Assembly (NCBI GenBank): GCA_003290165.1
Contig: QNQO01000835.1
Location: forward strand, 62,001-126,000
Length of the DNA stretch: 64,000 nt
Direction: 5' to 3'
From: Berberis thunbergii
Taxonomy: Eukaryota > Streptophyta > Magnoliopsida > Ranunculales > Berberidaceae
Shown here: positions 438 to 61,600 of the stretch, in pieces
Layout of the letters: every line of letters begins with the position of its first letter
Numbering within the stretch: position 1 is the first letter of the stretch
Made by a program: the position numbers and the translations under genes
The notes under the pieces: model-generated
What the model was told of the DNA's origin: nothing
The model's input: only the letters and a program-made list of their open reading frames with translations
Databases searched by the model: none

Positions 438-466
438 CAAAAAGACCACGCGCAAAAAAAAAGAGA

Positions 467-6400: not shown

Positions 6401-9400
6401 TATTATGACAAATAGAGTAAATCAGATCAAACAACAATCTCTAGTTTCATTTAAATGAAAACTGAAGCCAAACATTAATTTGCTATCTAAATTCAACGTT
6501 TTTTAAGGCACAATCTGAGCGGAGAAAGATACAAGCGAACAAATAGACTTATCTAGACCTTTAACCTCTTTTATTTACTCATTATAACAAATGGAGTAAA
6601 TTAAATCAGACAACAACCTCTAGTTTCATTTAAATGAAAAATGAAGCCAAGCTTCACTTTGCTATCTAAATTCAACGTTTTTAAGGGCACAATCAAAACG
6701 GATAAGGATTTTAGCGAACAAATAGGCGTATTTTGACCTCTAACCTCATTTACATATTTATTATGACAAACAGAGTAAGTTAGATCAAACAACAATCTCT
6801 AGTTTCATTTAAATGAAAAATTAAGCCAAACTTCACATTGCTATCCAAATTCAATGATTTTTAGGGCACTATCTGAACGAGGAAGGATTTGACCGAACAA
6901 ATGGACTTATTTTTATATCTAAACTCTTTTATGCATTTATTATTTAAACAGGCATAAATTAAATCAAAAGAACAACCTCCAGTTTTATTTAAAAAATAAT
7001 TAAGCCAAACTTCACGTTGCTATCTAACATCATCGTTTTTAGGGCACAATCTAAACGAGGTAGGATTTGGATGAAAACAATGAGCTTATTTTGATATAAA
7101 ACCTCTTTGATGTATTTATTATGACAAATGGAATAAATTAGATCAAACAAAAACCTCTTGTTTCAATTAAATGAAAAATTAAGCCAAACTTCACTTTGTT
7201 ATCTAAACTCGACGTTTTTAGGGCATTATCTGAACGAAGAAGGATATGACCGAACAATGGACTTATTTTGACCTCTAACATCTTTTATGTATTTATTACG
7301 ACAAATAGAGTAAATTATATCAAACAACAAGCTCTAGTTTCATTTAAATGAAAAATTAAGCCAAACTTCACTTTGCCATCCAAATTCAACGTTTTTAGGA
7401 CACAATCTTATAATGATTTGTGCGAGCAAATGGACTTATTTTGACCTCTAACCTTTTTGATGCATTTATCATGACAAATGGAGTAAATTAGATCAAACAA
7501 CAAACTCCAGCTTCATTTAAAAGAAAAAATGAAGCCAAACTTCACATCGCTATCTAAATTCAACGTTTTTTAGTGCAGTATCTGAACGGAGAAGGATTTG
7601 ACCGAACAAATGGACTTATTTTGACCTCTAACCTCTTTTATGTATTTATTATGACAAATAGAGTAAATTAGATCAAACAAAAAACTTTGGTTCAATTTAA
7701 ATGAAAAAATAAGCCAAACTTCACTTTGCTATCTAAATTCATCATTTTTTAGGCACTATTTGAACGGAGTAGGATTTGAATGAAAAAATGAACTTATTTT
7801 TATCTTTGACCTCTTTGATGTATTTTTTATGAAAAATGCATTTAATTATATAAACAAAATGACATCTAGTTTCATTTAAATGAAAATTTAAGCCAAACTT
7901 CACTTTGCTATCTAAAGTCTCCCTTATTTTGGGCATTATTTGAACGTATAAGGATTTGACCAAACAGATAGACATATTTTGACCTCTAACCTATTTTATG
8001 TATTTATTATGACAAATGGAGTTAATTAGATGAAACAACAATCTCTAGTTTCATTTAAAGGAAAATTTAAGCCAAACTTCATTTTATTATTTAAGTTAAA
8101 CATATTTTAGGGCACAATCTCAACGAAAAAGTATTTGAGAAAACAAATGAACTTATTTTGACCTCTATCCATTTTTTAAGTATTTATTATGAAAAATGGA
8201 GTAAATCAGATAAAAAAAAATAACCTCTAGTTTCATTTAAATGAAAAATGAAGCCAAACTTCACTACGCTATCTAAATTAAATGTTTTTTAGGGCACTAT
8301 CTGAACGGAGAATGATTTGACTAAATATATTGACTTATTTTGACCTCTATCCTCTTTTATGTCTTTTTTTTTAGAAATGGAGTAAATTTGATCAAACAAA
8401 AACCTCTAGTTACATTTAAATGAAAAATTAAGCCAACCTTCACTTTGCTATCATATTCAACGTTTTTAAGGGCACAATCAGAACGGAAAAGAATTTGAGC
8501 CAACAAATGGACTTATTTTGACCTTTAACCTCTTTTATGAATTTATTATGACAAATAGAGTAAATTAGATCAAACAACAATCTCTAGTTTCACTCTAAAT
8601 AAAAAATTAAGCCAAACTTCACTTTGTTATCTAAATTCATCGTTTTTTAGGGCACAATCTGAATGAAAAAATTATTTTAGTAAACAAAAGTACTTATTTT
8701 GACCTATAAACTCTTTTATGTATTTATTTATACAAATGGAATAAATTTGATCAAACAACAACCTCTAGTTTCCTTTAAACGGAAAATTAAGCTAAACTTC
8801 ACTTTGATATCAAATTCAACTTTTTTTACGACATTATCTGAATGAAGAAGGGTTTGAGGTAACGAATGGACTTATTTTGGCCTCTAACATCTTGTACATA
8901 TTTATTATGACAAATGGAGTAAATTAGATCAATGAATAATCTCTAGTTTCATTTAAATTAAAAATTAAGCCAAACTTCACACTGTCATCCTAATTCAATG
9001 ATTTTTACGGCACAATCTGAACTAAGAATGATTTGATAGAACAAATAGACTTCTTTTGACCTCTAACCACTTTTATGTATTTATTATGAAAACAGGCGTA
9101 AATTAAATCAAACAACAACCTCTAGTTTCATTTAAATGAAAAATTAAGCCAAACTTCACGTTGCTATCTAACATCATCGTTTTTTTGGCACACTCTGAAA
9201 GAAGTAGGATTTGGATGAAAAGATGGGCTTATTGTTATCTCTAGCATCTTTGATGTATTTATGATAACAAATGGAGTAAATTAGATCAAACAACAACCTC
9301 TAGTTTCATTTAAACAAAAAATTAAGCAAAACTTCACTTTGTTATCTAAATTCAACCTTTTTTTGGGCACTATCTGAATGGAGAAGCACTTGACAAAACA

Positions 9401-10558
9401 ATTTGACTTATTTGACCTCTAACCTTTTTTATTATAACAAATAGAGTAAATTATATCAAACAACAATCTCTAGTTTCATTTAAATGAAAAATTAAGAAAA
9501 ACTTTACTTTGTCATCTAAATTCAACGTTTTTACAATCTGAGCGGAGAAGGACTTGTGCGAATAAATGGACTTATTTTGACCTCTAACCTCTTTGATGTA
9601 TTTATCATGACAAATGGAGTAAATTAGATCAAACAACAACCCATAGCTTCATTTAAATGAAAAATGAAGCCAAACTTCACATCGCTATCTAAATTTAACA
9701 TTTTTAAAGGCACCATCTGAACAGAGAAGGACTTGACCGAACAAATGGACTTATTTTGACCTCTAACCTTTTTATGTATTTATTATGACAAATATAGTAA
9801 ATTAGATCAAACAACAAACTCTGGTTCCATTTAAATGATAAATTAAGTCACACTTCACTTTGTTATTTAAATTCAACATTTTTTAGATACTATCTGAATG
9901 GGGACGTATTTGAATGAAAAAATGAACTTATTTTGATCTCTGACCTCTTTGATGTATTTATTGTGACATCAAAATAAATTAGATCAAACAACACTATCTA
10001 GTTTCATTTACATGAAAAATTAAGCCAAACTACAGTTTGTTATCTAAATTCAACTTTTTTTACAGCATAATTTGAACGGAGAAGTATTTGAGCGAACAAA
10101 AGGACTTATTTTGTCCTCTAACCTATTTAATGTATTTAATTTTACAAATGGAGTAATTTGATCATACGACAACTTCTAGTTTCATTCAAATGATAAATTA
10201 AGCCAAACTTCACTTTGCCATCTAAATTCGACGTTTTTTAGGGCATTATCTGAACGAAGAAGGATTTGACTAGACTTATTTTGACCTCTAACCTTCTTTA
10301 TGTGACAAATGAAGTAAATTAGATCAAACAACAATCTCTAGTTTCATTTAAATGAAAAATTATGTCAAACTTCACTTTGTTATCTAAATTCAACGTTTTT
10401 TAGGGCACAATCTGAACGGGGAATGATTTGAGTACACAAATGGATTTATTTTGACTTCTAACATCTTTTATATATTTATTATGACAAATGGAATAAATTA
10501 AATCAAACAACAACTCTAGTTTCATTTAAATGAAAAATGAAGCCAAATTTCACTTTGC
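467..10558. repeat. ~178-bp AT-rich tandem satellite array, ~10 kb
   Basis: A head-to-tail array of diverged monomers, roughly 55-57 copies. A landmark such as the sequence following 'gacaaatggagtaaat' recurs near 506, 684, 973, 1150, 1329 and onward at about 177-180 bp. One unit near 684-796 is shortened to about 112 bp. Each monomer carries the same blocks: TTATTTTGACCTCTAAC, TATGTATTTATTATGACAAA, GGAGTAAATTAGATCAAACA, CTCTAGTTTCATTTAAATG, AAGCCAAACTTCACTTTG and TTTTTAGGGCAC. Two variants of one block alternate irregularly (ATTATGACAAAT..TTAGATC versus ATTTTGAGAAAT..TTTGATC). All short ORFs here are chance frames of the repeat. The monomer length lies in the range of plant centromeric or heterochromatic satellites, but no centromere function can be read from the sequence. 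Confidence 0.93.
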
Positions 10559-10890
10559 TAAGGCACAAATTAGCCATTACATCAACCACAATATCTAAAT
10601 TGTCTATTTTATGAAAAACTAGCCCTTAAAAGTCATTTTTGGTTCTTTTTATTTCGTCTAACCCCTATTTTGAGTGTTGACCGTTAAGTCAACAACTTTG
10701 ACTACCAGAAAACATTTCAATTTTTTAAATGTCTGAAATACCCTCACGTGCCTCACGCGTATTTACACATGCAAAAAGGTGGTGGATCACGTCATACACA
10801 TGTATAGATCAACGACTATGATTGACCAATTATAACTCACAAAATTCCTAAAATCCATAATTGCCCCCACCCTTATTATTTTTTCCCTCT
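10559..10890. other. Unassigned AT-rich flank, possible left terminal repeat of a decayed DNA transposon
   Basis: The satellite stops abruptly at 'actttgcta' and is followed by sequence containing TTTTATTTCGTCTAACCCC, TGTTGACCGTTAAGTCAAC and TTTGACTACCAGAAAAC. A loosely matching inverted version lies at 14850-14985 (for example GTGTTGACCATTCAG and TTTGACTATCGAAAAC on the minus strand). This could be the left end of an old element that landed in the satellite. No gene is visible. Confidence 0.35.
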
Positions 10891-18454: not shown

Positions 18455-21400
18455 TAAGGATGCACGGATACGACACGGCGACTCAGCAATTTTCAAAAAA
18501 ATAGGATTCGGCGACACGGTCAAACTTAATTTTTTAATATATTTTTTTTGTAACTCATAAGAACATAAAATCATAAATAAATTAATAATACTATTAAACA
18601 ATCCAAATATATCAATAAAACATTCAAATTTACAAATGCATCATAAAGTCAAGCTCAACTGCTCAAGTCATACTCATAAAGCATAAGCAATATAATTTCA
18701 TTAACTTGATAATGTAAATAAAATGTAAATTGATAATTTCAAAAACTCACTAGCGAGGCGGCTACATCTCTTCTTCTTCAATAACTAGCGGATCAATTGT
18801 CGCATTTTCTTCATTCAACAGCCCACCTTCTAGCTCAGGTTCATCAAGTGAAAGACTGACAATCTCAAGCATTCCAGTAGTATCCAAATCCAACGAATCA
18901 ATAGTATCTTCTGCGATATCCCACATCATTGTCTCACCCTCTTTGTACTCTTGTTTTCTTCTTGACAAAAGACGAAGGTTGGAATGCACATACACTAAAT
19001 CTTCAGCTCGTTGTGGGGTCAATTTGTTCATTTTTAATGAGTGGATGTTGTTATACGTGCTCCAATTCCTCTCACAACATAAGGAAGAACAAGGTTATCT
19101 AAGTAACTTCAAAGCAATATTCAGGAGTAATGGTGCACAGGTACCATGAGAAACCCACCACACATCAGGTTCTAGGTATGCTCTATTCTGTAGAGCATCA
19201 CCTTCTGCAAACTGTCTAGTACCCGTTGAAAACCTAGCATACTCTGTAATAACCAATCTTCTTTCTTGAATATTAGGAAAGTATCTCTTGAAACACTTAT
19301 CTCTCTCTTTTGTAATCTCAGGATCTCTGTATGGCGAAATACGATTAGGATCCTCTTCAAGCCATTCTCTGCTATAATACCTATATATAAGCAATGTCAA
19401 TCACAAATTAATATATAAACATTAAGTGCATAACTCATGAATTCTAGTCTTCTAGTCAAGACTCAAGAATAAGTAGAATAAAAAGTTAAAAACAATGTAA
19501 CTATTTACCTTGGATTCAAGGAATGTGCTAACCAATGCAGTGGTGTGTTGTTTTTCTCCCATCGATCTACCAATATCTGATACACCACTGAAAAAAACTC
19601 CGACTCACTATTTTCCTTTCCTTCATGGCAGTAAATAACTTGTTTCACTTTATCAATCATAACATCCCACATCTCATACACCAAGTGAAGACAAGACTTA
19701 TCTGTGTCAGCCCTCCGCAACATTGAATAAATACCCTTCGCAACATTGAATAAATAGGCTCTGTGAAACGAAGTACATAGTCCACTTTGTCCCACCGCAA
19801 GTCATCCAATAGTTTTCCTTTCACAATCCGTGCTTTCTCAACATCATCTTCCTATATGAATCCCACTGATCTCCAATCACCATAATCTGGATGCTACTTT
19901 TAATGTCTTTCAACCTCTTGAGCATAATTATGCTTGAAGCAAAGCGTGTCTCTGCTATGGAAAGTAACTTCAATCTCGAATGCTCATTAAACATATGCAA
20001 CCTCATAGAATGGTTCATGATAAAATTCTTGATCAGCACCCCATCCCCAACAATATCAATAATCCAACTACACAAATTGTAGGCCTTTTCATTTGCAGGC
20101 GTGTTTTTTGGAGTGCATATGTTCTTCAAGGCAAGGTTGAGAGTGTGGACTACACAAGGTGTCCAAAAAACCTCAGGATACTGGCTCTCAACAAGTAAAC
20201 TTGCAGCCTTACAAACTAGAGCATTGTCGGTTATAACTTGAACCACATTACGTGGCCCAACGTCACGTACGACTTTCTTGATCAAATCAACAATGAAGAA
20301 CTTGTCTTTGTATTCCCCTTCACAGTTCACTGCCTTTAAGAACATTGGACCACGAGAGGCCTCCTTTGAGAATCAGTCCACCCATCACAAACAATGGTCG
20401 CCCCTTTAGTAACTCATGTGAACTTTGTTGCCTCCAACAACCTCTGAATGATGCCCCTTTCATTTTGAAGCAATGCCGTCCTCAATGCATTATACTCAGG
20501 GATCTTGTAACCATTAATGAACTTTGCTTTATTCGTTGCATAGGTGAAAGGCTCCTGAAAATACGGATTCCTTGCAAGGTTGAATGGCAATGCAGCTGAG
20601 TAGAACACCCTTGCAATCAAAGCATCCAACTCTTGTCGTTCACTCGTATTGAAAGCATTTGCAATAAGATTATTAGTTACTCTCCTCTTCCTTTGTTCAT
20701 TGTATGGAACTGAAGGACCAACCCCACTACTTGAACCCGGGTGCGGGTGACTACTTGAGCCCACTGAAGGAGGTAAAGGAACACTTTGCGCCCTTGAATT
20801 TTCTGCTCATAATGCAGCTTCATCAACAAATTGTTGCACCTCTCTAAGTTGTATGGGAAAATTTTTGGCACAAATAGCTATCCCACTGCCTGTTATCTTC
20901 AACAAATGGTCATTCAATCTAGTAAGAGTTCCCGTATATTTTTTCTGACAAAAGTTACACCGCCATCTAAGGTTTCCCTCACTTTCACTTGGTCTTCTTA
21001 TTATTGTCACATGCTTCCAAAGATCATCTCCAGTTACTTGGCCTAAAATCAGTTTTAGTTTTTCTTTAGTTTTCAGCCAATAGGTGCAAGCTCAAATATG
21101 GGGTATTTGAAGTATTTCTGTGGTTCGATCAATCGATCGATCGATTCTCTGTTTTCTCCCCTCGATTCTCTTTTCTCTCTGTTCTCTGTGTTGTCTCTGT
21201 TAGGGTTTGTGGGAGGAAGGATCGAAGGGAAAAAGGATCGATCTGATTTATTTGCAACATTTACAAATACCGTGTTCGGACCTTGTTTGGCCGAGTCTAG
21301 ACCGTGTCCGGACCGTATCCAAGCCGTGTCCAAATCAGTCAACAAATTTTGACCGTTGACCCCGTGTCCAATATGTGTTCAGCGCGTGTCGGGCGCGAAT

Positions 21401-23586: not shown

Positions 23587-25018
23587 TTCCCACGTCAAAT
23601 TTTCCTTTGAATCAAACACAGCCTTAGTATTGAATTTACTTCTCATCTTGATTGATTTACAGTTCAGTTTTATTTTTCCCTTTATATCACCTCATTAGCT
23701 AGTAATTTAATTTTAATTTATTTTTTATTTTCTCCAATACCTCAATGACGCTCTGGCCACTCTTTAACTGCAACAGGTTTCCATATATATAGTAGGGATG
23801 GTACAGAACTCCATTGCCTTAAGGTTAGCATTTTTCCATTAAGAAGTGCTCTTTGTAGCTTGACATGAAGAACAAAAATAAATCAATTGGGCTATGATTC
23901 TATATTCAAATGTAGAATCAATCCGAGTCTTGGACATCATATCCAAGTTGAGTTGTTCCCTTGTGCCTAGAAAACATATTTGTTGTTCTCCTTCCTGTTT
24001 AGATATGATGTTCTAATTACATAATAAACTGGATTGTGTCTCTCAGGAGCATGGGGCAGCACTGAAGCTTCAGTTTTTGAGAAACCACTTTCTCTTGGCA
24101 TCCGTAAACAAATTTGGGCAACTTCATTACCAAGACATCACCATGGGTGAGATGGTGGGTAATTACAGGACGGGTCTTGGACGTTGTGATGTAATGCAGG
24201 TGAACAATTTCAATGGTGTTGTAGGTTTAGGTCACTCTTGTGGCAAAGTCACCATGTGGAAGCCTGCCAGTTCTGCTGCTCTGGTCAAGATGCTTTGCCA
24301 TAACGGGCCGGTCACAGCAATGGCTTTCCATCCAGGAGGTTATCTCATGGCCACGGCAGGAATGGAGAGGAAGATCAAGCTTTGGGATTTGAGAAAATTT
24401 CAAGTCCTTCACACATACCCAGAACATGCTAAGACCTTGCAATTCAGTCAGAAGGGTTTGCTTGCAGTCGGCAATGGGTCACGTGTACAAATATGGACAG
24501 ATTCTTCCCATAATCAGAACTATAGCCGTTATATGAGTCATGCAATGGTGAAAGGTTATCAGGTAGGGAAAGTAGTGTTCCAACCATACGAAGATGTTCT
24601 AGGACTTGGACACTCTGCCGGTTTGTCATGCATTCTTGCCCCAGGCTCCGGAGAGCCCAACTTTGATTCATGGGTGGCAAACCCATTTGAAACCTCTAAA
24701 CAGAGGAGAGAGAAGGAGATTCACTCTCTCCTTGACAAGCTCCCACCAGAGACTATCATGCTGGATCCCTCAAAGATAGGCACAGTGAGACCGGAGAGAA
24801 AGAAAGACAACCCAACAAAGTTGGAAAGAGAAGCAGAGATGGAAGCTGCCATCGCAGGTGTCAAAAGCGCTCCTCAAAAGAAGAAAACAAAAGGAAGGAA
24901 CAAACCAAGCGTAAGGGAAAAGAAGAAGCAAGAAGGCATTGTGAAAGCAAAGAGACCTTTCTTGGACAACCAAATGAAGGAGGAAGAACATATTAAGAAG
25001 AAATCAAGAGTAAGCTGA

Positions 25019-47930: not shown

Positions 47931-48212
47931 GGAGACGATTAATTCAACTGAAGCTTCATTTTTTTTTTTGTTAATCATGTTTTCCCTAAGTTCATCTTCT
48001 ACAACAAATACCAATAAGATCCATTATGCACATGATCTTTATCTTCAAGGTTGTAGCTTAAGGTTCTAGTTTGTTGAAGAAGCCACAATCTTCCAAAAAA
48101 AGAGTCACAATCTTAAGGTGTGATGGCAGGTTAAAAACTATTTTATATATAGGACAGACTGAGGTGGCAACAGGCAGCAGGATAAGAAACTACACTACAC
48201 CAAAAATACCCA

Positions 48213-48585
48213 TTAGCAACGGTTTTAAACCGTGGAGGTAATCCATTGTCACGATTTAGAGCCGTGGGCTGTAGAGGCATCGCTAAATCCCAAGTAACTG
48301 CTAAAAACCGTGGCAAAAATATTAGCAACGGTTTTATCTCGAGGACGGTTGATGATTTAGCCACGGTTATAAACCGTTGCAACAATCTTAGCCACGGTTC
48401 TAAGTCTTGGCTAGGAGTAGCAACGGCTTAAAACCGTTGCAAGTTATGGCCACGGTTCTAAGCCGTGGCAATAGTTTAGCAACGGTTTTAAGCCGTGGCC
48501 AATACCAGCTACGGTTATAAGCCGTGGCAAGGTAGCCACGGTTTTTAGCCGTTGCAATAATTAGCCACGGTTTTAAGCCGTGGCA
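48213..48585. repeat. Left subterminal repeat array of the CACTA element
   Basis: About ten palindromic units of the form AGCAACGGTTTTAAGCCGTGG, with GCCACGG/CCGTTGC variants, are spaced 30-45 bp apart. Confidence 0.92.
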
Positions 48586-48878
48586 ATTTTTTTTAAAATT
48601 TATTTATTTATTATTATTATTATTTTGGTCACCAAGATATATCAAATGTATTAAGATGATTTACAAGCTTTGTTGCTGAAGAGGGACCTGAACTCTGAAG
48701 TTGAAATTTTCACAAGGATCATTTCATCACCACAATGATTGTCTCAGAAAAATATCAAACTATTATTACCTAACAATTTCAGCCAATTCTGTGGCTCTAT
48801 CAATTTCTGAAATGTCATCTACAGAACACATGTACAACTGCCAAGGGTCAACTGTCAGAACAGAATTCACTAACCCCA
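48586..48878. other. CACTA interior between subterminal repeats and PESCADILLO fragment
   Basis: AT-rich with a TTATTATTATTA run near 48608. No gene is recognised. Confidence 0.5.
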
Positions 48879-50399
48879 TTACAAGCATTTCAAACAGAAT
48901 TCAAAACCATGTGGTGTATAAGCGGTATAAGGAATCCCCTGAAGCTCCATTTTGAGTTCGTCATGATACTGCTTCTCAAACTCAGCCATCTGCAAAAGTT
49001 GAATCCAGTTTACGAACTTGACTAAATGGTAACCAAATTACGACTTTAATTTACCAAGAAGAAAGTGATCAGTCTAATAAAGGTAAGAAACAAAGTCAGA
49101 ACTCACTTTTGAAATATATTTTCCTTATTTTAAATATATCAACGCCATTTTGAATGAAATATCTTTGTTTTAGCCAAAAATCAAAATCAAAACTTTTTAG
49201 CAATAAAAAACAAAGTCTAGTGATTGCTCATTGCCCAATATTTTAATGATTGGACATTATCTTAAAACAGCAAGTACCTTCCGTTTCTTCTCAGCAACTT
49301 CAATCACTTCTGCTCGACTGACAGCACCTTGAGCCAACAAATTTTGAGGATCTTCTAAATCATGTTGGTCTACACCTGGCATTGGCATAATTTCATTTCT
49401 AGCAGCAGCTGGCAAACGTTTGATCGTCTCATCGTACTCGGGAACATAGCCTTCTGCTTCGTTATCAACAAAAGGTGACAAATGAGGTGGAGGAACCCTA
49501 TTGCATCACCAATGTAACACCACTACTTTTTTCAATGACAATAAAAATTTATGCAACTAAAATTCAATTAAAAATTTTATTTTAAAATCTTCTTTCGTTT
49601 GACAAGTTGCATTTTTTGAAATTCGCTTAACTTTCTTTCCTCTACCGAATCTCGGGACGAGATTCTTTTGAGTTGTATATATTGTAGCACCCCGTAATTT
49701 TTCTACTTACTGAAAATATTTATATTTTTGTGTGATTGTCTTCATTAAGTTATGGGCATACGTATGAGCTATTTGTTTGTCCATGTGATGTGTAGTTTGT
49801 TTATTTAAGAATTAATTTCCTACTTACCTTCCTCTACCGAATCTCGGGACGAGATTCTTTTGAGTTGTATATATTGTAATACCCGCCTAATTAAATAAAT
49901 ATAAAAATTTCTTTTGTAAACCCTAATGTTGATGGGTTGTTACTCAATTGTATTTGGGCTTGGTTGTGGGCTTTTAATAAACTAATAAGTAGGGTTTTTA
50001 TTTTGTGAAAGAGGATGGGTACACTCGAAAGTTCGGTGGGGGAGAATAGCCTCCCACCATATAAAAAAAACAAAACCTTTTTCCTCAAGTTTTCGTTTCT
50101 CTTTCCCGTTTCCTTCTTAATGGCGGCTGATATTGGTGAGGGGATGAAGATGGGAAGAAGATGGAAGTCAATAGAGAAAGAGAGCAGAGAGAATTGAGAA
50201 AGCAAAGCAAGAATAGCCCTCTTCTTCTATTTCTATTTTCCTTGTTATAACTCTGCTACAGGCCGATGTTATTGTTAGTGGCTGAGATCTGATGCATCGG
50301 AGAGAAGAAGAAGAGCTTCTTTTGGTGGCATTGCCGAGCAGGCAAGAGAAGTTTCCGTGTTTTTGGTGTTGTTCGGTTCCGATAGATCTTTATGGATCT

Positions 50400-50565
50400 T
50401 GTTCGATGTTACTGAATCGGAGATGTCTCGCCATTGTATTTGATCTTGATGAGACACTCATTGTGGCAAACACAATGAAGTCATTTGAAGATAGAATTGA
50501 AGTTCTTCAAAAGAGGATTTCGATTGAAAATGATCCAGTTCGAATTTCGAGAATGACTGACTTTG
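50400..50565 (+). pseudogene. Fragment of a CPL1/CPL2-type RNA polymerase II CTD phosphatase inside the LTR-type insertion
   Basis: The plus frame reads [20 protein letters not shown], then [19 protein letters not shown] and NDPVRISRM. This is the start of the FCP1-like catalytic domain of plant C-terminal-domain phosphatase-like 1/2, with the DxDxT motif (DLDET) intact. Homology fades on both sides: after RISRM the frame continues only about 15-20 residues without family resemblance. Without the rest of the phosphatase, BRCT or dsRNA-binding domains it cannot be active. The likely origin is capture by the retroelement. Confidence 0.8.
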
Positions 50566-51929
50566 TTTTGTTGATTCTAAGAGAAATTGGTTGTATGAAA
50601 TTGAAGAGATGAAATAGGAAAGAAAGTAGGAGTTTTGATTTGGGAAGGAATTAGGAAAGATTGGTTGTTCCTGCAGAATTGGTCGTGAGCTGGCTGCTAG
50701 GGAGAGATGAAGAAGAAAATCAGTGCTAGTTCTTTGTGAAGGGAGGGTTCTGTTTGGTTGTGGCTGCGCAATCCTTTAAGGTTTGCGATCTCTTCGGTGA
50801 GTTCTCTTTTAGCCCTTTCAGTATGTTTTTTTTTATTTAGTCTCTCACAATTTGATCTTTGTGAAGAAATGTTCACAAACATTTGTTTGTTTAATTGGTA
50901 ATTGGTTATGTGTTTTTTGTGTTTGTTTACGATGTTTAAGCAATGTATTATTTCTGTCTTTAGCACTTATTGTTTGGATGTGTAACAACTCTAGGACATA
51001 ATTTGCATTTGTGCTTGTAGCTTTACTTACTTTTTCAGTATTTGGAATATGAGCATTGAGTCTGTGGGATGTCACATTAGGATGGTGTGGTTGAGAGTGT
51101 TGATGAAATAATTTTGGGTTTTGAGAGTTATGAAATTGGTTGTGAATATATAAGTTTGATTGTTTATTTAGTAGCCTATATGTACAATCAAAAGGGACAA
51201 ACAGATAGTCATTTTTGGGTTTAGTTACATTTGTTAAGTTATACATGATTAACCCCCTCATCATTTAGATAGGATCAGGGATTGAGCTTAAGTTTATTGG
51301 TTTAAACCACTAGTTGGTTTGCAATTCAACTCAAGACAAGTTTAGAAGAACCATTTTTTTGAAGTAAGCTTTTGTGGACTGGTGATCATATATGTTGAAT
51401 TTTGCTGCTCATTACATGGTTCTGTGTTATACTATAATCTAACATATTATATATGCATGAATAACTAGTGAACATAATTTGATATAAGAAGATCCTTTCA
51501 CTACATGATTCTATGGGTTGCACTCGCATTCCAGCCAATTTATATTTTATTAAATAAATATTAGATATTGGTTGGAATTTAACTGAGCACTTGTTTTAGC
51601 TTTAGTATTTGTATTGTTATGCGAATTGGTGTGCATATTGTTTTTTGTATGATGCAAAGAGATGAGATGTATGAATTGACAATGTGTCAAATATTACTTT
51701 TCCCCAAAAGAATGGTGGATACTGTGGTTGATTTATTTATGGTTGACAAAGCGTCACCATACAAGAGTTTTGAGGATTTATTTATTTTTATGCTCTTTTC
51801 CACAACTTCAAAAAAACAAAAAAAAAACAAAAAAATGTGAAAAGAAAAGTATTTTTTTTGTATACAGACTTGCTTGTATACTTGTGATATTATTGGGTAT
51901 GCAGACTTGCTTGCATATCAGTGTACTTG

Positions 51930-52197
51930 CCAGTGATCGACCTTCGGGTGAGATGACATGTTCCTCGAGGTGGCACCCCACTTGGAACATATACGCTTCG
52001 AATGGTTTCGATGGCAAGGGCGGCACACTTGGGTGAGGTGTGTTCGGTTGTACGTGTAGATTTAGGAAGAATGCTTGCCATGGATCGAACTTTGGGTGAG
52101 ATGACATGTTCCTCGAGGTGGCACCTCACTTGGAACATGTACGCTCCGAGTGGTTTCGAAGGCAAGGGAGGCACACTTGGGTGAGGTGTGTTCGGCA
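51930..52197 (+). repeat. 147-bp tandem duplication inside the LTR-type insertion
   Basis: TGAGATGACATGTTCCTCGA begins units at about 51949 and 52096, followed in both by GGTGGCAC..CACTTGGAACAT and GGCACACTTGGGTGAGGTG. Confidence 0.85.
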
Positions 52198-53150
52198 CAG
52201 GAGGAGAGTGTGATTGTGGAAAAGAAGCAAGATTTCTTTTTTGTGTATGTGCATGATTACCTTAAAGGAAGAAACGAAATGCTCATTCAACCATTAAATG
52301 AGAACTACATGTCTTTCCAAAGGTAGAAAAATGTGTTTTGTTAATATTTCAATAATAGTCTAATATGATTATGAATTGTATAATTGTTGCATTTATGAGG
52401 ATTGATAACTCATAAACTTTATTTATTAGTAATAAATAATGCATATTTATTTATTAGGATGATGACACCTTTGCCTCATGGAGGAACTACCTGGTGTGGT
52501 TGTTTATTGTTTGGTTTATTTTAATGTTGTTATGTGCGGATTTATTGATTTTGGGATGAAGATTTCTCACACCAGCTTTATTGCTGACCCGAGTGAGCTT
52601 TTGCTTCTTGGGTACATTCCTTTTGGAATGTAGCCGATTAGCTTTTCAGGTTTAGAGATTTTGAGCTGCGTACTGGAGTTTCGCTAGTGAGCTAGCAACG
52701 TCAGAGTCTCACCGGGTTAGATTTTTATTTGTTACAGATGTTTAGTTCATGCTGCTAATTGTTTCTGTTGTTATTGAATTCTCACGTCCCGAGTTTTGGG
52801 GGAAACGGATAATCCTACGTGGATTTTTAGGATTTTCATTTCCTTAGAAAAATCGGGGCGTGACAACCAAATTCATGTTATATGTAATGTTTATTGATAG
52901 GATGCAACACATTGTTTCCCTTGTATATTTTCCCAGAACTGACAGACATCATCCTATGGCCAACTATTCACATGCAATTATCAATAAACAAAAAATAAGG
53001 CAAAACTATATATGTTGGTATTTTATACCTTCCCACCAAGTAAGCATTTGTTGGTAAAATAATCCTTGCATTTATACAATCATAAATCCACTGCGGCTGA
53101 ACATATTCTCTGGAGAGGAATTTATGACCCTGAGTTGGCCTATCCACTAT

Positions 53151-54241
53151 CTGCAAAATGGCAGTTTGATCGTTTAATCAGTTTACAAAAGAAATATATG
53201 CAGGGTGCATCCTCCACCAGTTTCCTATGTGTAACCACCTAAAGTAAGTCCCTTGAATATAACACTTATTTTCTTCCTAACCCCCACATGAAGTAAATCT
53301 TCTAAGAATGAAAATACAATTTCACTATGCTAATGGCACTTTGGGCTTATCTGCCAAATAATGTGAAAAAAAAGAATTCTTTGGCCAAACTGAAATAGTC
53401 CACACGGAATTTAAAACTGAAAGAGTTGAAAAGTGGAGACCATTAAGAGTATGACACAACCCTTGGTGATCCGTAAGAATGGGGTCATAACATGAGTTGT
53501 TTGGGCTAGTCTGTTAAATGGAAACGATCCACATAAGGTCACAGGTACATAGTGTGAGGACGATAAATCGAGTTACGATCAATCGAGTTACCGATACGTA
53601 AGTATTGGTAGCGGTCATTCCAACTGATAGTTCCATCGGTGCAGCATGTAAAGGCAGAAACATAAACATTATATAGTGTAAGCAGCTAATACACACTCAC
53701 GAATACCCAAAGTGGTGCATATATAAGAGGAAACTATTGTGTGCATACATATACACACTCACGAATAATGTGAAACATAAACATTATATAGTGTAAACAG
53801 CTAATTAAAATAAGACTAGAAAATAAAAATAAATACATAATAACTGAGAGAGATGATAAATTATTTGTTTTGCTAAATCATTATGCATAATGGTCCTAGA
53901 TTAGACCATCTAAAGATTCCGATAGTAAGCATTAACAGTATACTCTTATGATTTAGCAGCTGGCAGTGAAACTGGTTGAAACAAATAATATTATCACATG
54001 TATGGATGTTAAAATATCTGTAAGATGTCATCAGGACAGAAAAGAAATGAGAACCATGATGCACATGCAAACCATACCATGACACTCCACTTTCAATTGG
54101 ATAAATGGCCTTGTATAGAAATGAAAATCGTAGAAAGAATACATTTTCAAGCAAAAACAGTTAACTAAGAAATATCCAACCAATGATTAGTTTTGATACA
54201 CATGTATCAAGCATAAATACCCAAATCCTCTTCTAAACATA

Positions 54242-54273
<32 letters not shown>

Positions 54274-54434
54274 TTGCACATATTAGCATGAGTTTGCAAA
54301 CTTATCATATTGAAAAATTTGCATGTCCGTATTTAGACTAAAAATGAGTACACAAGGTTAGGTCCTCTTGACAAGCAGCACATCCAAAGACACACCAAAC
54401 AACTCCCTAAATACAAGGAGAAGAATGAACTCAC
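53151..54434. other. CACTA interior between the two captured genes
   Basis: Expected exons (upstream PESCADILLO; the last ZDP exon with its YVGDAAGR-type motif) are not found here. A (TTA)n run lies at 54245-54283. A short repeat 'acacactcacgaata' occurs at 53692 and 53755. Confidence 0.6.
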
Positions 54435-56439
54435 TGATCCATATCAATGGTGATGTCAGAGTTGAAATGCCGCTCCATGATTCTCCACATTCCAGGTTTG
54501 GGTTTTCTGAAGAGATCTTGCTGACCATATCCACAAGCTATGAAAACCTGCATCCAAATGCAGGCAACTCTATTATAGAGTTATTCATAACTCATATGAT
54601 CAACCTACTGTCATCCCATCAATTATAATTGAGAAATCTATCATATAGCAAATAGACACAATATTCCCCCTTAGCAATGTGTTGGCCAATAATCGAATGC
54701 ATGCCATCTCAAGAAAAATGCTTTGATAATTGTCGTCTCTAAAAGCTTAAACTGATAAAGAAGATAGAGAAGACAGATCTTATTCAAGAGTCTAGGCCCA
54801 TGGGAAATGGGAGTGAGCTTTATTGTACATCTATATGTATATTTATATTTTATGATGAACAACTTTTAATCCAAAAGCATTCAGTTAAATGCCTTCTCCT
54901 AGCTATTTGAGGCATCTCATTTTGCAATTCAATATCAGATCCTATGAAACCATGTCTTAAAGTTTCATGTCATTGAGCATCTTGGTTTTGAAAGTGTGGA
55001 TGAATGACTGCGGTAATGCGCAAGCACGACTACGAGTCCATATATCCAAAAAGATAGCATGCACCATAAAAGAATTGTTCACGCACCTGAATAGGGACAT
55101 TGACACATTTAATGACATTGTTAAGCCTTCCAATCTTAGAGTTAACAGCTACTTGTCTCTTATTCTTCCAACGATCGATGTTGGATTCATTGGTAAAAAT
55201 TACCTAAGAATGAAGGGGAAAAAATAGAAAGCTCCCACACTTCGTTAAAAAATAATAATAAAAATTTAATGCACTGACAAAACAAAACTAATCACGGCTT
55301 AATGAAACCATAACATTCATGGAGGCAACTATGACCAACATTTGCAAAAATTAAATTTTGGTGAAGAAACAAACCAGTTTGTAGCCATCATCATATAAAC
55401 TCTTCAACTTCTCCGGTATGGAAGAATACATAAGGGACCATGCATCTGGACCAGTTCTGCAGTAGTTTAAATTTGTCAAGCTTTTTAGTTGTCAAAATTC
55501 TGTCAAAATTCAATCATTCAGGTGATATGTTACTTCGTAGTTGATTACATAATATACGAGCCAGCACGAGGAGAAGATTTTTTTATAAAATAGCACCATT
55601 ATCAGCAGATTATACTAACACTGTGTTTGGGCTGCATTAGGATATTACATCAGAAAATCCTTAATATTCACTTAATTGGCACTACACATGTAAGTCCCCC
55701 TCATTCAAAAAAATTGATTCACAGGAAATAAGTTTCTCTCAGGGATGAGATGCTCACAGGTAGTCATTACAAATTTTATTTCCTTCCATATGGATGGATT
55801 TGCACGTGCAATCAAGTAACATTTAAGTATTCTCCCATGAAAGCTTTCCAACACAACCAAGCATATCTAATCTATTTGTGACTCCTATTAATTATAAAAT
55901 TATAACGATATTGTGAACACATTTCCTCGTGTTTCATACTTTACAATCACACTTACCTTGCAAATAAGCCAAGGGAAAAACTAATAACCAAGGACAATTA
56001 CAACAGCGAAGAATTGCTCCAGTGCTTCACTAGAAGGATGTATTGAAAGTATTGGTCACCTTTGATCAACTATCCTTGTAAATCATCAGTGTGTTGATGC
56101 AATAGACAAATATGGTGATACAACAAAATTTTCAGCCGATAAGGCTAACGTGTTTAACCAGTCAAAACCATTACCTTTTTAGAGATGTTTTTGCAAGACA
56201 CCCATCAAAATCAAATGCTGCAATTTTGCTTGAATCGTGGAGGCCTTCATCCTAAGCCAACAAAACAGAGATCATGAATCAATCACAAAGATAATACAAA
56301 TATGTGACATATAGACATCTGTACACAGTATCAAATGATTAACAAAGTTCTCACCTGCTCAAGAAAAATGATTGTTTGGAACGCCTTCCTTTTGGGAAAT
56401 AGTGTGGAATCCTGTGACAAATGGTCAAACAACAACTTG

Positions 56440-59290
56440 GCTACCAATAACAACAGCGAGGACGAATAAAAACAACAAGAACGAGAACAACACAACAATA
56501 AAGAAAAATCTAACAAGATTGTATGCCTAACTAAGTGCCCCCACAACGACTAAGAGACAAAATGACTATGTAAACAGAGGTTGATACTGAAGATGTAATG
56601 TGCTTATTTGGTGTTGGATGGCCACGAAGTTTGTGTTTAGAAGTTCCTTTGTGATTTTTATTCGGCTTGCCTCTGGGCAAACGTTGTATTTCAGTTATCT
56701 ATTAAATGCATAAGCCAGCCACCCCCCCAGTAGCATCGATACCTAATCTATATCGCACTTGAATGGCTTTTTTAGATCCAATTCCATCCATTTTGGTTGA
56801 GGCAATTCTTACTTGTTCATTGGAAACTGATCTTTCTTCAATGGCTGAGAACTGGGACAGGGACTTCAACAGACGGACAAGAGCTGCGAGGAGTTTGACT
56901 ACGGTCCCTGACTTGCTTCCAAAAAAGAAGGGACGCTTTCACTGGGCCTGCCCGATTTGACAGACCAATGGCCAAGTGCTGCTTTATTGTATTGTTGGCC
57001 TAGGTGCGCTATTGCTACCTTCCCCGCCCACCCCCCTTTTTGAAGCCATTACTTTGTTTTGTCCTTATTGTCTTCTAAATAGAGATAGTAGCAGATAGAA
57101 ACTACATAAATGCAACACTAAGACAGGGCAAAACATACCTTGTACTCATCCTTTACTTCGGAGCTGGAGAAATGTATTTCTATCCCAGTTTCCTCAACAA
57201 GTGACAATTGGTTTGTTTCCAATAAAAGGATCAGTTTTTCTCTTTGGGTTAGTAGAGCAGTATTATACAAAATAAATTGAAGAAAATGACATACAATCTT
57301 TTCTAAATAATATGCCATACCAGATACAAATAAAATTGCTCATACCTTTGAATGAAAATGGATCACCTTAATGGAAGAAAAATCATTTCTTTGTTTATTT
57401 AAAAAAAAAATAGTTTCTCTACCTTTACTTTCTTCGAACTGTTTTCCTTGCCTTTACCATGCTCAATTTCTTCTTCTTCCAAAACCTGAAACAAATAAAA
57501 TAGTTTAATACTAAAATAAGAACGCATATAAAAAATGATACTTAGAAAGACTCTTTGTCTCATGTTAACCGCAACCTCCTCCTTCACATTCCCATGCAAT
57601 TTTCAGGACCCACATTACACTAAACTCAATCGTGCATTGCTAATTTAAAAAAAACAATAACAAAGGAAATCTTCAAAACTCCTTCTCCTCCGAACCATCA
57701 CTTGGAGCCACGAGCTTATTCAATGCTTCCTGATCATCACTCTGAAACAACAACAAAACCAGAATCAGTTCCAAATTACACACACCAACTAAAAGAACGA
57801 TTGAAATCAAGAAAACAAACAAACCTGCAAGAGAGAAAACCCATTGACACTCTCCAGAGACTTGGCAGGAATGGCTTTAGAGCATTTCTTGCAAGAAGAG
57901 CAATTCGACTTGGCGTACTCTGCTACGATCTTCGCCAACAACGACAATAATAACAATCAAGAGAAATCTAACAAGATTGCATGCCTAATTCAAGTGTCTC
58001 CACAATAATGACTATGAAATAGAATGAACATGTAAACAAAGGTTGTAACTGAACTACTGAAGACATAATGTGCTTATTTGGTGTTCGATGGCCTTAGTCA
58101 CAGATTTTGTTTATAAGTTAGCTTTGCCTTAAGAGTTTCTTTGAGCTTTTACTTTGGCTTGCCTCTAGGCTATCGTTGTATTGCCACCCCCCCAACCCCC
58201 ACCTCTTAATACTCTGGTTACTTTCTAAATAGAGATAGTAGCAGATAGAAACAAAATAGATACAACACTAAGACTGGAGGAAAACGTACCTTGTACTCAT
58301 CCTTTTTTTTCGGAGCTGGAGAAACATAATTTTGCCTCAGTTTTCTCAACAGATGACAACTGGTTTGATTTCAATGGAAGGATCAGATTTTTTTCATAGG
58401 ATCACTAGGGCAATACTATACAAAATTAAATTACAGAAAATGACCTACAAGCTTCTCTAAAAAGTATTTCACAAACTCACAATGACAAAACACAAAACAA
58501 GTTGCAGACAGAGCACATTAATAGATAGCCTTTGTTTTGACGTGGTGCCTAACAAAATTGTTTGATTATCGTCACACCTAAACTTTGAACATGCTCTAAA
58601 GAAACAAATTCAGACAAGGACAGCATTTCTTGCGATATATTGATAAAAAAACTTGGTTACCTTTAATTTCTTGGAACTCCTATCCTCAGCTTCACCATCC
58701 CTAATTTTTTCAACTTTCAGAACCTGAAACAAACCAAATCGTTTAATACTAAAAGAAGAGCGCATACAAAAAAGTGATTTAGAAACTACATTTCTGTTAT
58801 CTTATTTCCCTTCCTACCCTTTTTCTAATTCTTAACCTCAACCTTCTCCTCCTCATTTCTTTGTAATTTTCCAGTGCCACATTACAGGATACATTATGCT
58901 AAACTGAATTACAGAATCTCTAATTCAACAACAATAACAAAAGGAAAGCTTCAAACCTCTTTCTCTTCCGAACCATCACCTGAAGTAGCCACAAGATTCT
59001 TCAGCGAGTCTTGATCATCACTTTGAACCAACAACAACAAAACCAGAATCAACTCCAAATTACATTCACAAACTCAAACAACAGTCAAAACCAAAAAAAC
59101 ATACAAACCTGCAAGAGAGAAAACCCATTGATACTCTCCAAGGACCAAATCGATTGCGAAAAGCAGTTCAAGTGGTGCCACTTTGTCGCATCGAACCCTC
59201 GCGGATCTCTGGTCACTAAACCTAGCCTCAAAGACTTGGCGGGAATGGTTTCCGAACATTTCTTGCAAGACGAGATCAACAAAGAGATCT
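56440..59290 (-). repeat. Partial tandem duplication of zinc-finger/linker exons and introns in the ZDP fragment
   Basis: Segments 56440-57950 and 57950-59290 match in exons and introns, for example ATGTGCTTATTTGGTGTT at 56597 and 58068, and AATAGAGATAGTAGCAGATA at about 57078 and 58226. The offset shifts from about 1.45 to 1.15 kb because 56763-57050 is present only in the left copy. Confidence 0.75.
56763..57050 (+). other. Extra ~290-bp segment in one ZDP duplicate, origin unknown
   Basis: This segment is absent from the corresponding place in the right copy (near 58165-58205). It opens a 65-aa frame containing SSMAENWDRDFNRRTRAARS with no family that I recognise. Confidence 0.4.
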
Positions 59291-59335
59291 AAAGAATAAG
59301 GAGATCTAAAGAAGAAAAAGGAGATCTTACCTTCT

Positions 59336-59500
59336 CAAACTTTCTTATTTTTCTTCTTATTCTTATTATTCTTCTTCTTCTTCTTCTTCTATCGTCCTCT
59401 CCTTCTTTCGTCCTTCTTCTTGCCTGCTTCGAGAATCTGTTTCGTCCCTGCTTCTTCTTCAATCGTCCTCTCCTTCTTTCGTCCTTCTTCTTCCCTTGTG
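59336..59500. repeat. TTC/CTT-rich low-complexity tract
   Basis: Runs of CTTCTTCTTCTT and a duplicated block TCGTCCTCTCCTTCTTTCG (about 59392 and 59463). It lies between the ZDP fragment and the right subterminal repeats. Confidence 0.8.
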
Positions 59501-59554
59501 AGAATTGTTTTTCATCAATTTTTTTCGCCAAAGTGCGAAAGTGAAATTTTTTTT

Positions 59555-59912
59555 AACTACGGTTTTAAACCGTTGGTAGTTTTAGCCATGGTTATAAACC
59601 GTTGCAACCTTTTGGTGTATTGTTTTTAGCCACGGTTTTAAACTGTTGGCTGTTATAGCCACGGTTTTTAGCCGTGGCAATTAAACCAACGGTTTAGAGC
59701 CGTGACCACTTCTCCACACTTCTACGTGCAACACACGTGCAGTTTAGCAAAGGTTTTAGGCCGTTGGGCACTACGTGGCAAACACACCAACGGTTTAGAA
59801 CCGTGGCCAAACATTTTTTAGCCACGGTTTTATGCCGTTGGCCACTATAGCCACAGTTTTTGGCCGTGGCAAATAAATTAACGGTTTAAGACCGTGGCCA
59901 CCTTCGTGTAGC
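59555..59912. repeat. Right subterminal repeat array of the CACTA element
   Basis: About eight to ten units of ACGGTTTTAAACCGTTG / GGTTTAGAGCCGTGGC, in the same palindromic pattern as the left end. Confidence 0.92.
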
Positions 59913-59938
59913 TAAATAGGCCTTTTGGTGTAGTGCTA

Positions 59939-60736: not shown

Positions 60737-61600
60737 CTAACTGCGAACAACTTTCTTGGTGGTTTTACTACTAGGCTGAGACCCATTAATGGTGATATTC
60801 CCTACGCCACCTCCATAGCCTCCCTCTCAACTTTATCTCTTTTCTGTTTCTCCGACTCAACACCATTAACAGAATGAACAATAGGCAAGGAAGGCTCAAG
60901 AAGGTGAGGGCCACTACTGACACTACACCAAATTGGCATTTGTGTAACAACCCTCAAAACAGTATCACTTTTGAAGTGTAACAATTCACCTAACAATTTT
61001 ACACATTTTCACAAACAAAATGATACAATAATTGTATCACCATGAAGAATATGGTTATAAAAGTGATACTATTCATGGTGATCCAACTTATTGTATCATT
61101 TTTTTGTGTTACTGTTTTTCATTTTTTTTGACTAAATTTAGTTTTTGACTTGAAATTGTTTGGTGAATTGTAACATCTCAAAAGTGATACTGTTTTGAGA
61201 GTTGTTACAAAAGTGCTAATTTGGTGTAGTGTGATCCATGGGTGGAGAAGGCATAAGGATGCTGTTGGTCGCTTCTCAGGAGAAAAATTCAATATTCCTA
61301 CCAAGAAGTTAGCCATGTCATTTGCATCTTGCTCACTGAATTTATACTTCTCCAGAAGCACCTTAGTTAGGGGCAAGAACTGCAGCCGACGGATGTGCCT
61401 TAACTCTCCATTACGACCGAAGAAGTCTTGGGAGTACCGACCACCTAATGCAATCTGAAAAGAAGTGTAATCATTTTACTAATTAATTGAAATAACAAGC
61501 ATCCAACAGAAGAGACCATCAGCTTACCTTTTGTGGCATCACTCCAAGAAGCTCCATCATCAGTGCCAAGTGATCCTTCATGATCTTCATTCCACTATAG
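60737..61600 (-). pseudogene. SRPK-type SR-protein kinase, 3' fragment disrupted by a MITE
   Basis: SRPK kinases phosphorylate Arg/Ser-rich splicing factors. Two minus-strand exons remain: about 61600-61528 (DHLALMMELLGVMPQK) and 61454 onward (IALGGRYSQDFFGRNGELRH, then VLLEKYKFSEQDANDMANFL and EKRPTASLCLLHPWI). After the MITE the frame resumes at 60917 with SGPHLLEPSLP and KQKRDKVEREAMEV and ends at TAG (60739-60737). Removing the 311-bp MITE and one TGA copy restores the continuous order PWI-SSGPHLLEP, so the MITE is the lesion in the last exon. With it, the frame reads about 35 foreign residues and stops near 61119. N-lobe and activation-loop exons are not found up to 64000, so the copy is also 5'-truncated. 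Confidence 0.85.
60921..61231. mobile_element. CACTA-type MITE, 311 bp, inside the last SRPK exon
   Basis: Ends CACTACACCAAATTGGCA and, inverted, CACTACACCAAATTAGCA, with a terminal repeat of about 75 bp (both continue into AAAACAGTATCACTTTTGA). The 3-bp duplication TGA is at 60918-60920 and 61232-61234. The interior is AT-rich and partly palindromic, and encodes nothing. Confidence 0.93.

Follow-up and report, generated by a model that had tools for sequence, protein, structure and literature searches.

The 64,000-nt window analyzed here, a stretch of Berberis thunbergii DNA (assembly GCA_003290165.1, contig QNQO01000835.1, positions 62,001 to 126,000 of the forward strand), contains at window positions 48193-59935 what is very probably, judging by its sequence, a non-autonomous Pack-CACTA-type transposon that carries captured pieces of two genes: a ZDP-type DNA-repair gene and the ribosome-biogenesis gene PESCADILLO (PES). 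The CACTA-type element measures 11,743 bp including a nested insertion and 8,385 bp without it. The characteristics of the CACTA (En/Spm) superfamily are present, namely terminal inverted repeats (TIRs) that start with CACTA, a 3-bp target-site duplication (TSD), and subterminal direct and inverted repeats at both ends; those of Pack-TYPE elements are found as well, with host-gene coding DNA between the TIRs and no transposase match. The features of the element are listed in Table 1.

The ends were located by a scan of all CACTA/TAGTG pairs lying 0.2-25 kb apart in the window (74 + 52 sites). Equal 3-bp flanks occur in 26 pairs, and inverted ends of at least 13 bp in two of these, the 48193-59935 element, whose ends are perfect over 13 bp, and a 311-bp miniature inverted-repeat transposable element (MITE); the next-best equal-flank pair has inverted ends of 8 bp. 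Just inside each TIR lies a subterminal array. The left array is built of palindromic units of about 29 bp, for which Tandem Repeats Finder (TRF) gave periods of 29 and 115 at 48356-48587; the right array was not reported by TRF, and self-BLAST shows matches in both orientations among its own parts and with the left array. The motif (C/A)(C/A)ACGGTT or its complement matches 23 times in the 64 kb, with 12 matches in the left 408 bp and eight in the right 396 bp of the element, and only three elsewhere in the window. Single-strand folding of a left-array piece (48356-48500, 145 nt) was better than that of 200/200 shuffles (z -9.1), as was that of a right-array piece (59700-59840, 141 nt; 200/200 shuffles, z -3.9). 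Because the arrays and the 13-bp ends are alike at both edges, the ends can be assigned to one element type, and the CTA duplication on both sides assigns them to one insertion. Directly inside the right array, 59342-59530 is pyrimidine-rich with TTC repeats (TRF).

Transposase domains were sought with Pfam in all stop-to-stop open reading frames (ORFs) of at least 60 amino acids within the element, and none of these 53 ORFs has one at E<=1; among them zf-PARP alone exceeds the Pfam cut-off. A first-pass annotation of this DNA had described an 11.7-kb CACTA element with matching ends, exact CTA duplications, paired subterminal arrays and no transposase of its own. Its boundaries and each of these attributes hold up in the present analysis; its size needs amendment, as 3,353 bp belong to the nested insertion and the CACTA element itself is about 8.4 kb long.

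Table 1. Features of the 48193-59935 element (window positions; TSD, target-site duplication; TIR, terminal inverted repeat)
Feature	Position	Strand	Basis
Left TSD copy, CTA	48190..48192	.	sequence, end-pair scan
Left TIR, CACTACACCAAAA, 13 bp, perfect	48193..48205	+	end-pair scan
Left subterminal array, palindromic units of AGCCACGGTTTTAAACCGTGGC type	48220..48587	.	start set by eye
PES exon piece 3 (MAEFEKQYHDELKMELQGIPYTA)	48921..48989	-	acceptor AG intact, 3' truncated
PES exon 2 of captured piece (RVPPPHLSPF...EKKRK)	49278..49497	-	canonical AG and GT; Pescadillo match
Left TSD of nested insertion, ACCAA	49508..49512	.	sequence
Nested LTR-retrotransposon-like insertion (TGTAACACC...GGGCGTGACA), internally rearranged, in PES intron	49513..52865	+	TG...CA ends, TSD
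Candidate third host-gene fragment, HAD/FCP phosphatase-like, in nested insertion	50427..50555	+	weak family scores
Right TSD of nested insertion, ACCAA	52866..52870	.	sequence
PES exon 1 of captured piece, end of BRCT region	53029..53150	-	canonical AG and GT
ZDP exon 13, last captured PNK3P exon (VFIACGYGQQ...IDMD)	54435..54547	-	donor GTGAGT intact; later exons absent
ZDP exon 12 (PNK3P)	55087..55203	-	canonical splice sites
ZDP exon 11 (PNK3P)	55375..55456	-	canonical splice sites
ZDP exon 10 (PNK3P, with DFDGCL)	56175..56251	-	canonical splice sites
ZDP exon 9	56355..56411	-	canonical splice sites
ZDP 5' tandem copy B; zinc-finger exon end 57825, exons 7 and 8	56420..57956	-	self-BLAST, tblastn
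ZDP 5' tandem copy A; zf-PARP exon 59267-59109	57936..59290	-	self-BLAST, tblastn, zf-PARP match
Right subterminal array, palindromic motif common to left array	59545..59900	.	motif counts, self-BLAST
Right TIR, inverted copy of CACTACACCAAAA, 13 bp	59923..59935	-	end-pair scan
Right TSD copy, CTA	59936..59938	.	sequence, end-pair scan

The ZDP fragment is identified by the joined translations of its exons, which match zf-PARP (E=1.4e-12) and PNK3P (E=4.4e-30). Against solved structures, five of its seven matches are polynucleotide phosphatase/kinase (best E=2.4e-18) and the other two are HAD-type phosphatases. With a joint ZDP and PES query, 1,174 proteins matched at E<=1e-3, and all of the best 120 are zf-PARP/PNK3P proteins. 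Exons were placed by tblastn with ZDP proteins of Macleaya, Aquilegia, Nelumbo and Papaver and PES proteins of Macleaya, Nelumbo and Papaver, and their boundaries were set at whichever GT/AG fits the homologs. The ZDP pieces run from 59267 down to 54435 on the minus strand, and 13 exon pieces were counted. Nine of these (1, 5, 6 and 8-13) have tblastn matches at E<0.05, and exons 2, 3, 4 and 7 are based on likeness to the other tandem copy together with weak or no tblastn matches; the 5' edges of exons 4 and 8 are not fixed. The gene is truncated at both ends, and its reading breaks off after ...IDMD, ahead of the conserved last exons.

The 5' part of ZDP is present twice, in tandem, and both copies are damaged. 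Copy A is truncated at its 5' side inside the first zinc-finger exon, has CAA at its exon 2 acceptor (CAG in copy B) and carries a +1 frameshift in exon 4. In copy B an in-frame deletion has removed about 30 codons of the zinc finger, no in-frame ATG lies between the preceding stop and AKIVAEYA, and the exon 6 donor reads TT (GT in copy A). The copies are 80, 73 and 82% identical in exons 2-4 and 83, 77 and 66% identical in the first three introns, so that exons and introns have diverged about equally; a figure of 50% for the fourth intron, an alignment artefact from an extra insertion, was dropped, and that of 54% for the first exon pair is distorted by the zinc-finger deletion. The duplication is probably older than the capture. 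The extra insertion, of about 350 bp at ~56690-57060 in an intron of copy B, is absent from copy A; its minus strand has a weak match to ribosomal protein S13 (E=0.0021, below the cut-off) and none in NCBIfam or PDB. We take this stretch to resemble plant mitochondrial rps13, and it may be a nuclear piece of mitochondrial DNA; with a family score below the cut-off, this is a lead only.

For the PES fragment, all five matches of the joined exon translations to solved structures are Pescadillo (best E=1.7e-14). A homolog search matched 2,506 proteins, of which the best 120 were listed, and one exon is 77% identical to the PES of Nelumbo. Pfam alone gives the fragment no PES name, its two hits, BRCT_2 and AbiTii, both being below cut-off. 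The three pieces recovered by tblastn (53150-53029, 49497-49278 and 48989-48921) all lie on the minus strand. This gene too is truncated on both sides, beginning at the end of the BRCT region with its first exons absent.

Within a PES intron, about 15 bp upstream of PES exon 2, sits the nested insertion of 3,353 bp, with TG...CA ends and the 5-bp TSD ACCAA on both sides. A 70-bp stretch is repeated within it (49630-49699/49822-49892, self-BLAST). Since Pfam found no gag or pol domain in any of its 18 ORFs that reach 60 amino acids, and self-BLAST no full pair of long terminal repeats (LTRs), it is named retrotransposon-like only. An insertion at this position would probably harm a working PES gene, and the insertion thus likely followed the capture. 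It contains a candidate for a third host-gene fragment, an ORF segment with an FDLDETL motif whose matches to NIF (E=0.096) and FCP1_euk (E=0.061) are both below cut-off; a search of PDB gave no phosphatase among 49 matches at E<=1, most of them coiled-coil designs. We take the segment to resemble plant CPL1/2, and with family scores below cut-off it serves only as a lead.

The presence of introns in both the ZDP and the PES pieces indicates that they were captured from DNA. The earlier reading had already proposed capture at the DNA level of intron-containing, minus-strand fragments of two unrelated genes. Capture from DNA is borne out by the canonical GT/AG borders of the retained introns, and the PES fragment by structure matches, tblastn and splice sites; for ZDP, the fragment, its introns and its strand were correctly recognized and the internal tandem duplication of its 5' part was overlooked. 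The location of the two genes was compared by hand in the species common to both homolog lists, 15 in number, less Xanthoceras and Camellia, for which the entries come from different assemblies. In Macleaya cordata, Nelumbo nucifera, Malania oleifera, Hevea brasiliensis, Rhamnella rubrinervis, Cephalotus follicularis, Ricinus communis, Lonicera macranthoides, Jatropha curcas, Rhododendron simsii, R. molle, R. vialii and Papaver bracteatum (13/13) the ZDP and PES homologs are on different contigs, in data that name one contig per cluster, include some small scaffolds and may mix assemblies. This is soft evidence that ZDP and PES are ordinarily unlinked.

The arrangement of the two pieces bears on whether the interval might instead be a segmental duplication of a region in which ZDP and PES were neighbors, with unrelated CACTA ends inserted on either side. 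The pieces share an orientation and ZDP exon 13 is separated from PES exon 1 by only about 1.3 kb, as such a duplication would have it; what is missing between them, however, is precisely the 3' end of ZDP, with its last exons, and the 5' end of PES. Had two complete neighboring genes simply been copied, truncation of both pieces on both sides would not be expected; the contig comparison and the agreement of 13-bp ends, TSD and subterminal motif at the two edges also speak against segmental duplication, leaving it extremely unlikely. A different objection would be that the CACTA ends derive from two nearby elements and that the interval between them is no mobile unit. The MITE, at 60921-61231, about 1 kb to the right of the large element, has 14-bp inverted ends CACTACACCAAATT, a TSD of TGA and an inverted-repeat structure along its whole length, and its right end equals the left end of the large element over 12 bp; compatible neighboring ends therefore do occur, and such ends cluster here. 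Yet CTA flanks exactly the 48193/59935 pair, the flanks would be unequal (CTA/TGA) if 48193 were paired with 61231 instead, and one subterminal motif, so rare elsewhere in the window, marks both ends, which makes an origin from two elements very unlikely.

A third proposal, compatible with a CACTA element, is that the captured DNA has become a domesticated or selected chimeric gene, and that some product or regulatory RNA is the reason why its open PNK3P and PES exons have been retained. ZDP exons 8-13 and PES exons 1-3 together form 309 codons without a stop or frameshift, where about 2.3 stops would be expected at 7% neutral change (P of none, 0.10), and splice sites are intact at ZDP exons 9-13 and in PES. 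Recent capture, however, accounts for the open frames equally well, and in ZDP both the zinc fingers and the final PNK3P exons are either damaged or missing. The canonical splice from ZDP exon 13 to PES exon 1 reads ...IDMDQ and then a stop; together with the several disabling lesions in ZDP, this immediate stop is why a domesticated ZDP-PES fusion gene was rejected. The fragments also have long terminal branches in trees of the PES piece with 14 and the ZDP piece with 13 homologs, hand-picked in each case from the best 120 listed (ZDP 0.21, median 0.084; PES 0.26, median 0.11; about 2.4 times the median), a weak argument since some ordinary genes have longer ones (Aquilegia ZDP 0.37, Papaver PES 0.31). 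Relaxed constraint would fit such branches, as would an unsampled host. Retention of a chimeric gene for its function thus deserves hardly any credence. The captured pieces are pseudogene fragments: neither ZDP nor PES is encoded in complete form, and the two are not fused in frame. If transcribed, several exons that have good splice sites could nevertheless join into chimeric RNAs. That the element is in fact transcribed, and that its PNK3P and PES exons yield chimeric or small RNAs acting on the parental genes, is distinctly improbable.

Several points weigh against a Pack-CACTA element carrying host-derived fragments, or limit the precision of that account. The PES tree sets the fragment beside Nelumbo (83/84), apart from Macleaya and Papaver, and the ZDP tree gives its fragment no resolved position. 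Phylogenetic proof of an origin in the host's own genes was consequently dropped as an argument, and the fragments are described as likely derived from the host's own ZDP and PES genes. The Pfam scan covered ORFs of at least 60 amino acids and could overlook a transposase so decayed that only shorter pieces of it are left. We infer in which order capture, duplication and nested insertion took place.

As to how the Pack-CACTA element arose, analogy with other members of the superfamily suggests that a CACTA transposase supplied by another element would act on the two ends to bring about excision and insertion, with duplication of CTA at the new site. At an earlier site, the element would have acquired genomic DNA, with its introns, from PES and from a ZDP-type gene. 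The route that we favor, at about an even chance, is that two related CACTA ends flanking host DNA were mobilised together, and joint mobilisation of neighboring elements has been proposed as a mechanism of acquisition (PMC8903248; reviewed in PMC13317346). The main alternative is faulty repair after excision, which would be indistinguishable here from joint mobilisation. The simplest order of events may be that duplication arose where the parental ZDP gene is under weak constraint and was followed by a fairly recent capture.

The first-pass annotation had suggested that a multi-gene CACTA element of this sort might be undescribed, a suggestion that does not survive comparison with the literature. 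Elements of this kind have been described before, in soybean, maize and Arabidopsis. In the soybean wp allele, Tgm-Express1 is a 5.7-kb CACTA element with five unrelated gene fragments that lies inside an F3H intron and is transcribed from F3H (Zabala and Vodkin 2007, PMC1947982). The Berberis element resembles it in superfamily and in carrying intron and exon sequence from several host genes that are unrelated to one another. The exons of Tgm-Express1 can splice into chimeric RNAs, as those of the Berberis element could if transcribed; unlike Tgm-Express1, the latter has two genes in 8.4 kb (11.7 kb with the insertion) and is known from sequence alone (PMC1947982). Maize Pack-CACTAs, by definition without a transposase match, hold DNA that stems from several loci (Gisby and Catoni 2022, PMC8903248); among Pack-TYPEs they have the most distinct captured loci, and their width correlates with the number of loci. 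In being non-autonomous, with TIRs, a TSD and captured coding DNA, the Berberis element is like the Pack-TYPEs of Arabidopsis, maize and rice (PMC8903248). The Pack-TYPEs of that study are multi-copy clusters from which singletons were removed, whereas the present element is described from one locus (in the 64-kb window, self-BLAST found neither its ends nor its genes a second time) and also has an internal tandem duplication and a nested insertion. CACTA elements of rice and maize are reported with 5-nt TSDs, compared with 3 bp here (PMC8903248); elsewhere a 3-bp TSD is stated as the CACTA rule (PMC8978399). Grapevine and Chenopodium CACTAs also carry host-gene fragments, but the elements described in the passages cited have transposase regions as well and contain either a single captured gene per element (PPR, Neprosin, AP2) or ULP domains (PMC2528002, PMC8978399). 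A search of one literature library, judged from titles and abstract beginnings, found no pairing of pescadillo with CACTA, and one covering Ranunculales and Papaver showed, among the 20 of 54 papers listed, no title on a comparable element in Ranunculales.

Elsewhere in the window, a long tandem satellite array occupies 456-10560 (self-BLAST), its units recurring about every 178 bp and being about 80% alike. On the minus strand at 19821-20345 is an ORF with a DUF659 domain (E=4.7e-24), a domain common in hAT-like transposases. The ORF at 24077-25018 is related to U3 snoRNA-associated protein 7; among the best 120 of 664 matches (E<=1e-3), the closest listed is that of Macleaya cordata (83%), followed by Thalictrum and Aquilegia (78%) and Macadamia, Stephania and Nelumbo (77%), with no Papaver protein among these 120; the window is thus plant DNA, and this ranking points to Ranunculales. 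No part of the window matched an Rfam family at gathering scores.

The element leaves existing knowledge of gene capture unchanged. It is also an annotation trap, where automated gene calling could wrongly report a paralog of ZDP or PES. If chimeric or small RNAs from its exons did act on the parental genes, one transposon would link the regulation of a DNA-repair gene and a ribosome-biogenesis gene. What it offers to the early-diverging eudicot order Ranunculales is a well-delimited multi-gene Pack-CACTA element, within which DNA-level capture, internal duplication and nested insertion may be read in order.

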